From assembly GCF_002234675.1 (NCBI RefSeq), contig NC_019866.2, positions 2,656,583 to 2,720,582 on the forward strand: 64,000 bases of DNA, in the 5' to 3' direction. Positions 29,610 through 38,600 of this stretch are shown piece by piece. Source of the stretch: Oryzias latipes (Eukaryota > Chordata > Actinopteri > Beloniformes > Adrianichthyidae). The notes below the pieces were generated by a model. The model worked only from the letters and a program-made list of their open reading frames with translations. It had not been told where the DNA came from and did no database searches. The first letter of the stretch is position 1. Each line of letters begins with the position of its first letter. Made by a program: the position numbers and the translations under genes.

Positions 29610-32600
29610 ATGTCGGAAAGAAGCATTTCCCTACATGAGCTGTTAAATCTGTCCATCGGGCCGCCTCGGATGAGCTCGGTGAACTTCGGCGCTCTGCACG
29701 CGCTCCTCCTCGCGGTGCTGAAGGAGCTGGGTATCCAGGAGCAGACGAGCCCGTGGAGGGACTCTTCTCCCCGCAGCAAAGCGGAGGAGTTCTCCGCTCA
29801 GACCCAGGAGGAGGAGGAGGAGGAGGAAGGGGACTCGCACCTCCAGCGGCATGGATGGGAGGCGCGCGCGGGCCTTCCGTCCAGCATCCAGAGCCTGGAG
29901 GACGGCGTGTCGGAGGTGAGGAGCACCTGGACACCTCAGAAGCAGCGCGTTACTCTAGTAACGCCAGTCCTGTTTTACTGAGTACACGTTAAATAACGAT
30001 TACAGGAAGCAACAACACAACAGGAACACAAAAAAGGCTTGTTTTTTTTAAACTGTAATTATTATTGTGTTGTTGGCATGTAGTTCAAATGCATTTATTT
30101 TGACATCATTTTTGTTTTATAAACCTCAAACCTAAAAATGTTTTATTTATTTTTTATGACCTAAATTAGTTGTGTTTCGCCTTTAGGTTCTTTTCCATAG
30201 ACCAAAGCGTCTCAAACCTGAGGGTTTTTGTGAAAAATACAGACAAAACCAGCAAACCTCCAGCCACAGCTGCACACATGAATTCCTGTCCGTTACCGGT
30301 GTTTGTCTTATCTTTTTATTTCTTAGGTGATCTTCTGACTCCTACATGTCAAATGTTCAGGAGATCTTCTTTAGATCTTCGGTTCTGCTTCTGCAGTAAC
30401 TCAGATTTAGGGATTACTTTTACAGACCATAAGTAATCTGTTACAACTGAATGATTGTGGCTGTTTTCTGGAGAGGGAACTGGAAGGATGGGTCCCCCAT
30501 CCTGGTGCATTTTGGGAGCTCAAGCTGGTTAAACTGTGTTTCTTGATCAGTCTGGTTCTGTTTAAACGGAGCAACTTTTGTTTTGATGTTTAAAGCGATC
30601 CGTGAGATCAAACTGATCCGGTAACAGGATTCTACCGTGGTTCTGTGTCACAAAGAAAGCTCTGTCCTTCTAAGCTGCCTCACATGCTCCTCCTCCTCCT
30701 CCTCTTCCTGTGGCTGAGACATTTCAACGCGGCGCTAAGCTGCTGATGACAGGACGCACAAAGGAGACGGGCGCCGCCCTGACATCTCCAATGACCTCCG
30801 TGTTCCTGTCAGGCCAACAGAGAAGTTTTCCTCTGGAGAACACGACTGCGGCCTCTGAGCTCCACGGTTTGTGGTTTGATGCCCCGGGTCGGGCCTGCTG
30901 TCCTCCTGCTGCTCCATGTGACAGGAGGGGGGGGGGGGTAATTAGTCCCCCGCAGAGAGAGCTGTCAGTGATGAATGCCTCTCAGGTGAAGGGCCCGGGG
31001 CAGGCGAGGCTTTCAGAGGCCCGTCTGAATCATTCATGGACGCTCTCCCTCTGTTGGCTTCACCGCGGCGAGGTGACCCGGCATGTCCTCGCCCGCCGGT
31101 GCTCGCCACATGTCACGGACCGGAGCCTCGGGTTCAACCGCCCCTCTGTCGAGCTTTGGGCCTACAGTGAGAGCCCCCCCCCCCCCCCCCCCCCCCAGCT
31201 GATGCTGTTTATGATCCATTTAATGAGTGACTGTTTCACCTGAGAGGAGATCTGAACTATTAACAGGCCTGTTGCCTTGACTTAAACATGTCATAAAGTT
31301 AAAGACTCATTTATGCAAAAGGATTTTTAAAGTTTTATCAGCAGTAAAAAACATAAACTCTTAAAAACCTTTTTGATTAAATACGAAAACCTTTGAGACT
31401 CCTTCCTTGGTTATAAATTATTAGAGATGGTGGTAAATGAGGTTAAACCGTGTAGGTCTGCACTCATTAACCTGCTGTGAGTCATCGGGCCCCAGCCGAG
31501 AACAGAGAGGCTGCGGGGGGCCGCTACGCATCATTTCCTGTCCGGCCAGCCCCTCCCTTCACGGCTCAGGAATGTCCGTGGCTCCTCGATCGAACGTTTG
31601 TTCTGCAGGCAGACCTCCATAAACGCTCGGGGTCACAGGTCACGGGGGCCACGCCCCTTTCACATGTAAAATGCACATCCTGAACGATCCTGTCTGTTCT
31701 CCGTCAGGCAATGGCGCTCATCCAGGAGCTGAGGACGCAAAAAGAGGAGCTGAGGACGCAGGTGGAGGCGCTCCAGCAGCAGGTGAGGCGGCGCCAGGAA
31801 ACCAGACCCTCCTCCTGACGGTCACCCTTATGAAACATCAGCAAACGTCACAGAAGGAAAACTAAAACATTAAAACAGCATCCGCAACATGAATTCAGTT
31901 TAATTTTTAACATTTGAGCATAAAAATCCAGGTGTTTTTGAAAACATCACCAAGGTTAAATGAAGGTTAAAACCTTCTGCAGCTGCTTCTTCCCAAAAAA
32001 GACTACAGCATAGATTTAATTCAGGCGCATTTGTGTAGAAAAAGTTGATTGGAGTCAAAATGACAGAACTTGTCGTTTAAACAAACATGGTCACGCAGCG
32101 TTTTTATTCATCTTCTTAAAAAAATGTGGGAACCCAGTAAAAATGTGGTTTTGTTCCGTTGTGTGTTTGTGTAGATAATGTCTCCGTCTCCTCCTCAGAT
32201 GGATGGAGGAGAAGCCGAGGAATTGAGGAAGTGCTGCCACCGTGTGGAGGCGCTGGAGGAGGACCTGGTGAGCGTCGGAAAGACTTTTTTCCTCCGTTTG
32301 ATCCACTTTAACCGTTTCCCAATTCAAAAAAAAAGTGTGAACAGAAGATTGTAAATTTGTTGAACGGTGGATAATTTGGATATAAGAAGATGAAGGATGA
32401 GTTAGAACTGTTTCTGCTGTTTCTGCGGAGCGGGTCTCCCTTGGGGGGTCCTGGCTCGTACCTGGGGTTGGGGCGGGGGGATGCCCGGAACTCCTGGGTG
32501 GTGGTGGGGTGCTCGTCTGGGGCTGTGGGCGTCCTTCTCCGGTGGGGCCCTGCGTTGGGTTCTCCCGGCGCGGCGGGGGGGCTGCTCTCCTGGTTGGGCT

Positions 32601-35600
32601 GGGGCGGCGCTCTCTTTCCCTCCGTGCCTCCCTGGCCTCTGGCTCCGGGGGCCTTGCGGCGGTCCTGCTGGCCCTGGCCTGGGTGGCGGGCTTGGTCGCC
32701 CGGGCGGCGGTTGTTCCCTGCCGGTTCCCGTGTGGCGTTGGGGGGATTCCGGCTGCCGCTGCTGGTGCGGTGGGGGTCTTGGGGTGGGGATGGCTGGGCA
32801 CTGTCCCTCCTTCTTTTCACGTTCCACCATCCATTTTAGAAGAACATAAACACTCACCTGAGCACAGGTGTTAGCTCAACAGACTGAATGACTGAGATAT
32901 TTCACACTAGTTGGTTTTAAGGCATAAGTATGCGTGTGAACACTATCTGTTTTGTGTACATGTCGACAGGTGGACATTTTTGCAACTAACAGGTGTGTTT
33001 ATAACATTTGAGTGTGTGTGTGGACAGGCTCCGCCCTTTTTTTTCTTCTTTTTTTTTACTACGTTTGAACCTTACCATAATGATTAACAACCAGTAAACT
33101 TGTTGCTGTATGCTGCTTCATGGTCTTATCCCCCTTCCCCTTCTATTATCACCCCTAACCCCCCTCTCTCTAACGTCCCTCTCTCTTCTTCCCCTCTTTC
33201 CTTTTCCGTCCGGTCCAACACCAAAGATTTTCAGACATGATTGAAATTAATAAAGTTTGGCCTCAATTACAAAAGGGGTTTATTCAGACATACCTTTGGT
33301 TTGTCTGAAGATTAATAACCCCTCTTGTTAAAGTAAAATATGTCCAACACAAGAGGCCCTCAGCTCTCATCTGACTGCCCAGCTGTTGGACAGGACAAGT
33401 TAAAAAAAAAAAAAAAAAAAAAAAAGAACTGTTTCTGCTGCACACGGGGAGTGAGGAAGAACCGACACCGTGCATCTGAACATCCGTCCTGCTGCTCACA
33501 TGTTCTCTGCAGGAGCCGGGAGAACTTCCTGTGTTCTCATGTCACAGAGCTGTTTGGATCCGTCTGTAGTTCTGTTTTCAGCAGCAGCAGCAGCAGCTGT
33601 GTGTGAAGGAGCTCCAGACTTTGCAGGAGGAGATGTTTCAGGTTGAGTCTGGTGTGTCTTTGTTGTGGCAGAAGTCCCTGAGAGGCGCCTTCCAGAGCTT
33701 TCCGGACCAGGAGCAGATGAGTCATGTGACCAGAGACGCCATGCAGTCGGTGCTGCTGAGTGACAGAGGACACCTCCAGCAGGTGAGACACGCCTCCTGC
33801 AGGGAGACACGCCTCCTACAGGTGAGACACGCCTCCTACAGGTGAGACACGCCTCCTGCAGGCGAGACACGCCTCCTGCAGGCGAGACACGCCTCCTGCA
33901 TGCGAGACACGCCTCCTGCAGGCGAGACACGCCTCCTGCAGGCGAGACACGCCTCCTGCAGGTGAGACACGCCTCCTGCAGGTGAGACACGCCTCCTGCA
34001 GGGGAGACACGCCTCCTGCAGGTGAGACACGCCTCCTGCAGGTGAGACACGCCTCCTGCAGGGGAGACACGCCTCCTGCAGGTGAGGCACGCCTCTCCTG
34101 CAGGTGAGGCAGGCCTCCTGCAGGTGAGACACGCCCCCTGCAGGTGAAGCACGCCTCCAGCAGGTGAGGCACGCCTCCTGCAGGTGAGACACACCCTCTG
34201 CAGGTGAGACACACCCTCTGCAGATGAGGCACGCCCCTTGCAGGTGAGGCACACCTCCTGCAGGCGCTGCTGCCATGAAGATGACCAGTATGAAGGTAAT
34301 AATGTGTCTAAATGGACGAGCTTGTAATATAGAATGTGAGAACTTGCTCACCAAAAATCTGCATCAGTGTGTAAAAATCTTCTGCTGTGAACTGATAAAT
34401 TCCCATTTGCATGTGTTTATTTAGAGTTACGACTTCAAATCTGCGATTCCAACTGCTCAAATGTGTTTCTGCGTGTGCTCCTATATGCTGGCGCAAACCA
34501 CAAATGCGCTACAACTGCGCTCTGAATTCTGACACAGTCCTTGCGAGAAACTTGTGTCAAAACTGATCTGTGTCCGATAATGGAAGTGGGGGAGGGTGTT
34601 TAGAGGAGGCGGGGTCAACCAATCAGAGTGCAGCACTCAGAAGATTAGGTAAAGTTAGAAAGGTCTTCACAGATTCAGCTCTGGCTCTATTGTCTTGCTA
34701 CAACAAAGAAGATTTTTCCTTTTGACGGCACGTTGGCAGCCGTCTCGCTGCATGTCTGCATTTAAAGCAAGAAGACATCATTTCTTATTAAAAGGCAGGA
34801 AAAAAATGACTTTTTTCTTTAGAAATGCATTTGTGGTTCACTCTCTGTGTTAATACAAATTGATTGAGAGACTTGCTGTCACATTTGAACGTCTATCAGA
34901 AGAGTTATTAAAGCAGGAAGTCTGAATCTGTGAAGACCTTTCTAACTTTACGAAATCCTCTGAGTCCTGCACTCTGATTGGTTGACTCCGCCTCCTCTAA
35001 CCCGCCCTCCCCGCCTACTTCCATTATCGGACACAGATCAGTTTTGACACACGTTTCTCGCAAGGAATGTGTCAGAATTCAGAGCGCAGTGTAGCGCATT
35101 TGTGATTTGCGCCAGCAGATTGATGCAGAAACACATTTGAGCAGTTGGAATCACAGATTTGATGTTGTAACTCTAAATGAACACATGCAAATGGGAATTT
35201 GTCAGTTCACAGCAGAAAATTTTACACACAGCTGCAGATTTTTGGTGCACAAGTTCTCACATTCTGTTTTACAAGTTCTCACATCAAATCTACAAGCTCG
35301 TCTATTTAGACACATTATGGCCTTCATAGACCAGGAATCTTCATTTGAATGGGCTGATGGTCTCACATGCTTTGCTGAGCTCTGCTCCTCGTGGAGTCAA
35401 AATGACAGAACTTGTCGTTTAAACAAACATGGTCATGCGGCGTTTTTATTCATCTTCTTAAAAAAATGTGGGAACCCAGTAAAAATGTGGTTTTGTCCCG
35501 TTGTGTGTTTGTGTAGATAATGTCTCCGTCTCCTCTTTAGATGGTTGGAGGAGAAGCCGAGGAGTTGAAGAAGTGCTGCCACCGTGTGGAGGCGCTGGAG

Positions 35601-38600
35601 GAGGACCTGGTGAGCAGCAGCAGCTGCAGCAGCTGTGTGTGAAGGAGCTCCAGACTTTGCAGGAGGAGATGTTTCAGGTTGAGTCTGGTGTGTCTTTGTT
35701 GTGGCAGAAGTCCCTGAGAGGCGCCTTCCAGAGCTTTCCGGACCAGGAGCAGATGAGTCGCGTGACCAGAGACGCCATGCAAACGGTGCTGCTGAGTGAC
35801 AGAGGACACCTCCAGCAGGTGAGACACGCCTCCTGCAGGGAGACACGCCTCCTACAGGTGAGACACGCCTCCAGCAGGTGAGACACGCCTCCTGCAGGGA
35901 GACACGCCTCCTACAGGTGAGACACGCCTCCTGCAGGTGAGACACGCCTCCTGCAGGCGACACACGCCTCCTGCAGGTGAGGCACGCCTCCTGCAGGAGA
36001 GACACGCCTCCTGCAGGTGAGACACGCCTCCTGCAGGCGAGACACGCCTCCTGCAGGTGAGGCACGCCTCCTGCAGGAGAGACACGCCTCCTGCAGGCGA
36101 GGCACGCCTCCAGCTGGTGAGACACGCCTCCTGCAGGTGAGACACGCCTCCTGCAGGGAGACACGCCTCCTGCAGGTGTGACACGCCTCCTGCAGGCGAG
36201 GCACGCCTCCAGCTGGTGAGACACGCCTCCTGCAGGTGAGACACGCCTCCAGCTGGTGAGACACGCCTCCAGCTGGTGAGACACGCCTCCTGCAGGCGAG
36301 GCACGCCTCCAGCTGGTGAGACACGCCTCCTGCAGGCGAGGCACGCCTCCAGCTGGTGAGACACGCCTCCAGCTGGTGAGACACGCCTCCAGCTGGTGAG
36401 ACACGCCTCCAGCTGGTGAGACACGCCTCCTGCAGGCGAGACACGCCTCCTGCAGGCGAGACACGCCTCCTGCAGGCGAGGCACGCCTCCAGCTGGTGAG
36501 ACACGCCTCCTGCAGGTGAGACACGCCTCCAGCTGGTGAGACACGCCTCCTGCAGGCGAGGCACGCCTCCAGCTGGTGAGACACGCCTCCTGCAGGCGAG
36601 GCACGCCTCCAGCTGGTGAGACACGCCTCCAGCTGGTGAGACACGCCTCCAGCTGGTGAGACACGCCTCCAGCTGGTGAGACACGCCTCCTGCAGGCGAG
36701 ACACGCCTCCTGCAGGCGAGACACGCCTCCTGCAGGCGAGGCACGCCTCCTGCAGGCGCTGCAGCCATGGAGATGACCAGGAATCTTCATTTGAATAGGC
36801 TGAAGGTCTCTATGCTGATCTCTGCTCCTTGTTGGAGGAGGTCTTTGTCATTCTTCCTCCTCAAAACGGAAGGTTGTGACATTTTGACCTCCAGAGTCGT
36901 CGTTGGTGATTGAAGTGAAGCAGAGAATTGAGCTGGAACTCAAATCAGACTCCCACATCTTTGTTGTGTTTCGGTGGAGGTCCTCCTCCCCCCCTCGCTG
37001 GAGGAGAGATTTTCAAACCAAACAGCAGATCAGATGGCTTCTCCCCCGCAGAGCGGTACCGGCGCCGATGCGGCGGAGGCTTCGAGGACCGTCGGCCTTC
37101 AGCAGGAGAAGTTCAACGAGCTGGAGGCTCGCGTCGCTGCTCTGGAGGAGGATCAGACCCAGCTGGCCGAGCTCAGAGAGCTGCTCGCTGACCGAGGTGA
37201 GCGTTCTTCAGCTTCCTGTCAAGTGATAAACTGACCCATCAGATGCCTCAATGAAAGTAGGCGGTCATGTGTCAAACGTCCGAAGCGTTTGATCGACAGA
37301 TTCTCCCGAGCCCTTAGAAACGCAGAATCTTACCGACGATTTCTGGTTCCAACATGGCGACGGAAACGGCTTCATTTAGCTGGAGCCGCAAGTCAACCAT
37401 TTTCGATGAATGACATCACGCTCGCAAGTCCAGTTCCATCATACAGTCAATGGTCAGAGAGCATCTGAACGCGCTCAGACCGAAGGCGTCCTCAAGGCAA
37501 AATGTCAAATGAATCATTTAAAGTCTTATGAATAGAAATATAAACAAAGGATTCAGTCTGTCTGTTTAACATTTTATGACAAATGACAGCAATCAATGAC
37601 TTGAATCCACCAAAAACTACAATTCCCAGAGTTCCACCCTCCACATTTGGTATCATTGAAAAGCCCCAAATGTCCTCTGTAGAAACAAAAGGAGATAGTT
37701 TAGACATTCAGGTTTAGAAGGTAGATCTGCATTTCTGCTCATCAGGAGGATAAACTGATCACCTCCTTCAAAATGAGGAGGTGCTCAGTGAGTCTGCTGC
37801 TATAAGGCATAAACGTGTTCTTGGTTGTTCAGGAAACCCGGAGCAGCTGATGGAGGAGCTGAACCAGCAGAGAGCTTTGATCGAGAGTCTGATGAGCGAA
37901 CAAGAGAAGGTGAGGCGGGCTTTAGGACGGCTCCTCGCCGTCTGCTCCGCTTGTGACGGCGTGACGTCTCTGCCCGCAGCTGGAACACCTGGAGGAGGGC
38001 GCCTTCGAGGAGGCCTCGGATGGCGTGGATGCAGACGGCGGAGCTCTCCGTGAGCTCAAACTGCAGGTGTCACATCTCAGGTAAAGACATGCAGCAGCAG
38101 TCACGGCGTCAGAACCTCTCCACCTGTTCTCCTTTCAGCTTCCGTTTGGACTCCACGTGACGTCTCTGCTCTTTGAGATCAAGCTGGTTTGTTGGCATGT
38201 TCTTCTCCTGTTGCTGTCCAGGAAGTGTGTTCATCAGCTGGAGGAGGACATGAAGCTTCTGAGGGACAGACAGGACCAGTGTGAGGAGACGGCAGCCGAG
38301 CAGAACCTGCAGGAGCAGGTCCGTTCTCTGCAGCGGGCCTCACCCCGTAGGGATGTTTTTACAGGCCGGAACGTTCCGCCCTAACCTCAGTTCTTCATGC
38401 TCTCCTCCTGCGCGACCTCAGCTGGATGACCTGCAGGCCATGTTGGAGGACTTCATCCTGTCCCTGACCTCCCACCTGTCCGGCAGCCTGCAGGACGACG
38501 CCGGACCGGACCGGACCCAAAGCCAGGAGTCCAATCAAAGCGCCAAGAGATCAGCCTTCACAGCCAAAACCGTAAAGGTTTGCAGAGAGCTCCGCCTTCT

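Follow-up and report, generated by a model that had tools for sequence, protein, structure and literature searches.

Minisatellites of splice-donor-like units beginning at exon-intron junctions in qrich2 and other genes of Oryzias latipes

The DNA studied here is a 64,000-nt stretch of the Oryzias latipes genome (C8:2656583-2720582, hereafter the window; the genome searched comprised 734 Mb in 25 contigs), in which a gene named qrich2 carries two arrays of a 20-bp unit resembling a 5' splice site. A DUF4795 domain is encoded in the same gene, 3' of exon C (Pfam, E 8.5e-46), and we take this domain to be the one belonging to QRICH2. The N-terminal exons, searched against Pfam and PDB, gave nothing but generic coiled coils. 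The name qrich2 is reasonable through the downstream DUF4795 domain, short of proof of orthology. In mammals, QRICH2 is described as a sperm-flagellum gene (PMC6347614). The features of the locus, in window coordinates and with a slash marking splice junctions, are the following:

32050-35389, plus strand: duplication copy 1 (local alignment), holding exons A1 and B1 with an intron between them, array 1 and a transposon that came later
32199-32267, plus strand: exon A1, 69 nt, phase 0, donor CTG/GTGAGC, predicted from splice signals and open frame
33582-33782, plus strand: exon B1, 201 nt, phase 0, ending in CACCTCCAGCAG, predicted
33773-34264, plus strand: array 1, 24.5 copies of 20 bp (Tandem Repeats Finder, TRF, and unit list), starting 10 nt inside exon B1 and passing through the B1 donor
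33783-33788, plus strand: genuine B1 donor, CAG/GTGAGA, predicted
33822-33827, plus strand: first decoy donor, whose use would add 39 nt (VRHASCRETRLLQ), that is 13 residues, in frame
34289-35328, no strand assigned: palindromic transposable element that entered copy 1 later than the duplication, with target-site duplication GACCAG (6 bp)
35392-36829, plus strand: duplication copy 2 (local alignment), with exon A2, exon B2 and array 2, without the A-B intron and the transposon
35541-35609, plus strand: exon A2, 69 nt, phase 0, donor CTG/GTGAGC, predicted
35610-35617, plus strand: remnant of the A-B intron, the 8 nt GTGAGCAG, between A2 and B2
35618-35818, plus strand: exon B2, open frame retained, without an acceptor of its own
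35809-36756, plus strand: array 2, 47.5 copies of 20 bp (TRF and unit list), starting 10 nt inside exon B2
37052-37196, plus strand: exon C, the next exon of the gene, predicted

The tandem duplication had been overlooked in the original prediction, which was made on the same DNA. By local alignment, the two copies are identical at 216 of 224 positions of the 5' flank and exon A (96.4%), at 207 of 212 positions of exon B (97.6%) and at 50 of 54 aligned bases of the 3' flank to the right of the transposon, and the donor of each exon B copy is where the array of that copy starts. The A1-B1 intron is 1.3 kb long. In copy 2, reading directly from A2 into B2 through the 8-nt remnant shifts the frame into a stop, and the acceptor score of B2 (-11.3) corresponds to no usable acceptor; both frames are open when the exons are joined as A1-B1-C and as A1-B1-A2-C. 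The placement of both arrays in one intron was not confirmed, because array 2 follows the second exon copy B2, and use of A2 would put the arrays into separate introns. The intron loss in copy 2 was near-precise and broke the frame, and it arose perhaps by deletion between short repeats. The arms of the transposon are inverted repeats with pieces 87-94% complementary, its empty site is present in copy 2, and its left part has at least 54 matches in the genome, 40 of the 413 candidate places having been scored.

We then considered the make-up of the arrays. Two arrays of about 24 and 47 copies of a 20-bp unit had been proposed, and TRF agreed with 24.5 and 47.5 copies, so that the two paralogous arrays are unequal in length in this single assembly. 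The consensus unit (up to 3 mismatches) was matched 65 times in the window and never in 100 shuffles, and CAGGTGAG occurred 34 times versus 2.5 expected, 25 of these 34 being within the arrays. The first unit of array 1 sits on the donor CCAGCAG/GTGAGACACGCC at 33783. The junctions of array 1 comprise 14 CAG/GTGAG, 1 CAG/GTGAA and 4 CAG/GCGAG, and those of array 2 comprise 11 CAG/GTGAG, 16 CTG/GTGAG and 13 CAG/GCGAG; the remaining forms of the two arrays are GGGA, GGAG, GAGA, ATGA, GTGT, GCGAC and CAT/GCGAG. The claim that every unit is a CAG/GTGAG junction thus fails, since both arrays together hold 25 CAG/GTGAG (2 of them the genuine donors), 16 CTG/GTGAG, 1 CAG/GTGAA and 17 of the poor form CAG/GCGAG, and the supposed 70 or so decoy donors come down to 40 GT decoys besides the two genuine donors (14 in array 1 and 26 in array 2). 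Long antisense open frames cross the repeat, the longest of 458 aa running through array 2 at 35433-36809 on the minus strand, and this frame is probably a by-product of stop-free repeat units. Long open frames are also present, on both strands, in a G-rich stretch at 32420-32800 of the A1-B1 intron.

The proposed origin of the array at the exon-intron junction is supported by the duplication, by the score of the exon-side sequence and by suffixes shared between exon and units, with a clearer parallel in PI4KA (below). The end of exon B, GACACCTCCAGCAG/GTGA, equals the unit GACACGCCTCCTGCAG/GTGA apart from one substitution and a 2-nt gap, and none of the 1475 other CAG-ending 14-mers in the window scores as high against the unit as the exon-side 14 nt. 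Each array also has one later unit whose last letters are CTCCAGCAG, identical to the exon end, and exon B1 and the units of array 1 share exact suffixes of up to 10 nt (median 4). Together with the start that TRF places 10 nt within the exon for both arrays, the 14-mer score and the 10-nt suffix indicate units that span the exon-intron boundary and carry exon sequence, as in the boundary repeats called mirages. The first units are alike in both arrays, a 19-bp GGGA unit being followed by a TACAG unit, so a short array predates the duplication; growth after the duplication differed between the copies. The qrich2 arrays are most likely a boundary minisatellite of the mirage type, neutrally expanding and spliced out with its intron.

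We infer the following course of events. A short tandem duplication across the exon B-donor junction, taking in about 14 exon nt and 6 intron nt, would have come first, and slippage or unequal exchange would have expanded the duplicated piece into the intron. The block of exon A, exon B and array would next have been duplicated in tandem. Later both arrays would have grown further and independently, the A-B intron would have been lost from copy 2 and the transposon would have inserted into copy 1. The array would be spliced out as part of the intron, from the donor next to the exon, perhaps with low use of a few decoys; it would not act as an acceptor and would most likely have no function under selection.

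Splice sites of the window were scored with position weight matrix (PWM) weights and a U1 sequence, and the scores serve for ranking only. The CAG/GTGAGA and CAG/GTGAGG units scored 10.9-11.3, equal to the genuine donor, CTG/GTGAG units 8.7, and the A1 and A2 donors 9.0 each. The original prediction had seen in the units a pattern of recursive (ratchet) splicing; in such splicing, or in dual-specific splicing, each CAG/GT unit would act as an acceptor and regenerate a donor, the intron being removed stepwise. This is in keeping with the CAG fused to a good donor in each CAG/GTGAG unit, with array CAGs that exceed the median AG of the window as acceptors (of all window AGs, 24% and 31% score no lower than the means of arrays 1 and 2) and with a bare TNA core found in the arrays at about 30/kb, which makes weak branch points possible. 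Sites of the AGGT type with weak 3' scores, in tandem repeats such as UBC, can also work both ways (PMC10809524). However, the YTNAY branch-point motif was found 0 times in 479 and 935 nt of array versus 18.5/kb in the window, and a preceding AG lies at a median of 14 nt upstream of each array CAG. The array acceptors scored -2.3 (array 1) and -3.5 (array 2) on average and 0.6 at best, below all four gene acceptors scored (A1 6.7, B1 3.6, A2 6.3 and C 1.0). The polypyrimidine tract and branch point of a zero-length exon were thus not found upstream of AG/GT in the arrays. The missing YTNAY, the nearby upstream AG and the poor acceptor scores make ratchet splicing very improbable, and these signals would also argue against dual-specific use of the UBC type.

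The boundary origin is itself compatible with an array of alternative donors as in human IFI6, in which the decoys would be used at a meaningful rate and would alter the protein or the mRNA level. Downstream IFI6 units serve as donors in human (Turri 1995, as cited in PMC4526556). In qrich2, units that make good 5' splice sites are present, though just as 25 CAG/GTGAG and 16 CTG/GTGAG; the decoys match the genuine 9-mer, and the decoy at 33822 is in frame. Local folding leaves the genuine donor not clearly more open than the decoys: 4 of 14 GT decoys in array 1 and 7 of 26 in array 2 are more open than the genuine donor, and 2 of 14 and 22 of 26, respectively, are less paired. Against such use, the frame check, which covered array 1, found a stop for 12 of its 14 GT decoys joined to exon C and for 13 of 14 joined to A2 (all but 33822), the decoy at 33842 being frame-shifted, open into exon C and stopped into A2. 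Among the further genes described below, the first decoy leads straight to a stop in PI4KA and in the diacylglycerol kinase (DGK) gene; in the RECQL4-like gene (+17 nt) and the coiled-coil gene (+29 nt) the added part has no stop and the frame is shifted in both. Since most decoys give stops, appreciable decoy use would be costly, and we regard a meaningful rate of it as unlikely. That such arrays persist is a hint that splicing usually takes the donor nearest the exon. Of the effects of decoys that had been proposed, donor-choice noise would be plausible, and titration of U1 by 40 sites of one gene is implausible by number. Masking of the decoys through self-pairing of CCTGCAGG and CCAGCTGG, with the genuine CCAGCAGG left open, was considered separately; these palindromes number 17 and 0 in array 1 and 28 and 16 in array 2, respectively, and the idea was not supported, as folding gives the genuine donors no clear advantage.

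Octamer triples with gaps of 6-24 nt were counted genome-wide, with the reversed pattern as control; triple places are not loci, and large arrays dominate the counts. The counts (control in brackets) were 771 (8) for CAGGTGAG, 30 (4) for CAGGTAAG, 255 (287) for CAGGAGAG, 94 (97) for CAGCTGAG, 1473 (1326) for CAGGTGTG, 51 (2) for CAGGTGAGT and 166 (0) for CAGGTGAGA. The ratio of CAGGTGAG to its own reversed control is by far the highest, yet its count lies within the range of the other octamers, and the best U1 match, CAGGTAAG, is rare in triples. That donor identity drives minisatellite formation genome-wide was established neither way by these counts.

Other CAGGTGAG-array loci were then examined in this genome, 24 in number: L009, 10 loci from C1 and C2 among the matches listed of the 771 CAGGTGAG triples, 8 loci from all 51 CAGGTGAGT places and 5 further ones among the matches listed of the 166 CAGGTGAGA triples. 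In 4 of the 24 the array starts exactly at an exon donor:

L042: diacylglycerol kinase gene (DAGK_cat 3e-12); unit steps of 21 bp (28 times) and of 42 bp (once)
L053, C11:308500-312500, minus strand: RECQL4-like gene; three 17-bp copies, namely the genuine donor and two decoys
L060: coiled-coil gene; 6 donors, 29-bp unit; the array makes up most of a 207-nt intron
L062: PI4KA; 19 units of 22 bp; PI4K_N 1.3e-16; PDB 9b9g 1.2e-44

In PI4KA the units hold 12 nt of the exon end, CCACGGCTACAG, exactly in 3 of the 19, with one change in 10 and with two in 6. The peptide encoded by this exon end, TKDYKDHGYR, recurs unchanged in the PI4KA chain of PDB 9b9g, which indicates that the exon is old and that copying went from exon to array. 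At L053, the next exon encodes a zinc knuckle (Pfam 2.8e-5) that matches PDB 2mpj, RECQL4-helicase-like, at 2.4e-6, behind a better match to a viral Gag zinc knuckle at 2.2e-7; beyond these matches, the name RECQL4-like is our assumption. Its three copies are possibly a newborn boundary minisatellite. A further sense array, L040, starts 50 nt past a donor of a gene that we presume to be beta-spectrin. The longest exact suffixes shared by exon end and unit were 12 nt in PI4KA, 10 in qrich2, 5 in the DGK gene, 5 in the RECQL4-like gene, 4 in the coiled-coil gene and 2 at L040, with medians of 5, 4, 4, 5, 4 and 2 nt in the same order. The evidence for an exon-derived unit is thus strong in PI4KA and qrich2 and weak in the DGK, RECQL4-like and coiled-coil genes.

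By eye, 5 of the 24 arrays are antisense near an acceptor (L009, L048, L051, L055 and L056), and 3 are antisense outside coding sequence (L045-L047). A Pfam match was found for only two of the five near acceptors, L051 (Iso_dh) and L056 (CTC1). The pyrimidine-rich strand of the antisense CAGGTGAG arrays at L048, L051, L055 and L056 might serve as a polypyrimidine tract. L009 (C16:32624000-32633000) has two long arrays, of 16-bp and of about 19-21-bp units, the longer of which reaches the acceptor; we take CAGGTGAG there to be antisense to a putative IQGAP-like gene, the peptides tried having no Pfam match. In the remaining 11 (L041, L043, L044, L049, L052, L054, L057, L058, L059, L061 and L063) no exon could be made out by eye where the array starts. 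Outside the 24, no exon end was seen at the start of L004, L006 and L007, found by similarity, and no exon at that of the CAGGTAAG array L050. At L006 (C9:425411-428801), a 21-bp array of 18.7 copies with 97% matches, the minus strand reads by eye as a coiled-coil heptad, LREEASD.

These arrays could also have been born inside the intron and have spread until they met a constrained exon, the donor match being a by-product. Array 2 fills 65% of the A2-C intron, the L060 array has the extent given above, and antisense arrays near acceptors were seen at five loci, all of which would suit such a boundary-limited growth; it is, however, opposed by the exon sequence that the unit carries in qrich2 and, unmistakably, in PI4KA, and we think it improbable as the account of the qrich2 arrays. 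Several points do weigh against birth from the junction. The suffixes of 4-5 nt in the DGK, RECQL4-like and coiled-coil genes make growth up to a protected exon edge possible there, and the match in qrich2 requires a 2-nt insertion and one substitution. With 11 of the 24 loci lacking a recognised exon and 8 antisense, most of the CAGGTGAG arrays examined were not seen to be donor-born. The intronic arrays, 5 sense versus 5 antisense, give no sign of a general function for sense decoys. We propose only tentatively, as a possibility somewhat short of even, that birth of minisatellites from exon-donor junctions is recurrent in this teleost genome, giving introns that open with near-identical tandem 5' splice sites, which would be a natural experiment on donor choice and would supply heritable splicing variation, polymorphic in length.

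The interest of these arrays lies in the recurrence of boundary minisatellites within one vertebrate genome, five genes having donor-starting arrays here (qrich2, PI4KA, the DGK gene, the RECQL4-like gene and the coiled-coil gene). Identical tandem donor 9-mers that differ mainly in their distance from the exon allow donor choice to be examined while the sequence is kept the same. Invariable use of the copy next to the exon would mean that position is decisive by itself; otherwise the length of the array would act as a splicing allele. PI4KA is direct evidence that a minisatellite can be seeded by the end of an exon, a point of relevance to intron growth and to duplication models of intron gain.

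A search of PMC3151243 and PMC2206037 yielded no boundary repeats, and no teleost minisatellite born from a junction appeared among the titles and abstract openings listed from a partial literature, from which we do not claim that none has been reported. In a teleost intron, polymorphic minisatellites are described in introns 1 and 3 of the growth-hormone gene of Sparus aurata (PMC3045353); unlike the qrich2 arrays, that repeat is not described, in the text available, as spanning a splice junction. UBC, which is included among the dual-specific splice sites of PMC10809524, has tandem AGGT sites as qrich2 does, but its monomers are coding and its sites are used both ways, whereas the acceptor half is poor in qrich2. 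The minisatellite of human IFI6 (G1P3) offers several splice donors (Turri 1995, as cited in PMC4526556 and PMC2572611), as do the tandem units of qrich2; the downstream IFI6 units are reported as donors, whereas those of qrich2 are candidate donors, of which a single one in array 1 keeps the frame. Minisatellites at exon-intron boundaries are also described inside recent human segmental duplications (PMC2812944), where the variation is between gene copies; in qrich2 it is between two copies inside one gene. The closest likeness is with the amphioxus mirages of Adh3 and of the globins BflGb6 and BflGb9, minisatellite-like tandem duplications of the exon-intron boundary (PMC3087553, which cites Canestro 2002). 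These have AG/GT signals in many repeats, with short units in Adh3 (10-72 bp), and reverse transcription PCR suggests that regular splicing is undisturbed (PMC3087553). Like them, qrich2 has tandem boundary units with splice signals; unlike them, it is a teleost case on the donor side, with 24 and 47 units, in a block duplicated together with two exons. Boundary minisatellites are thus a known but rare kind, to which qrich2 adds a case.

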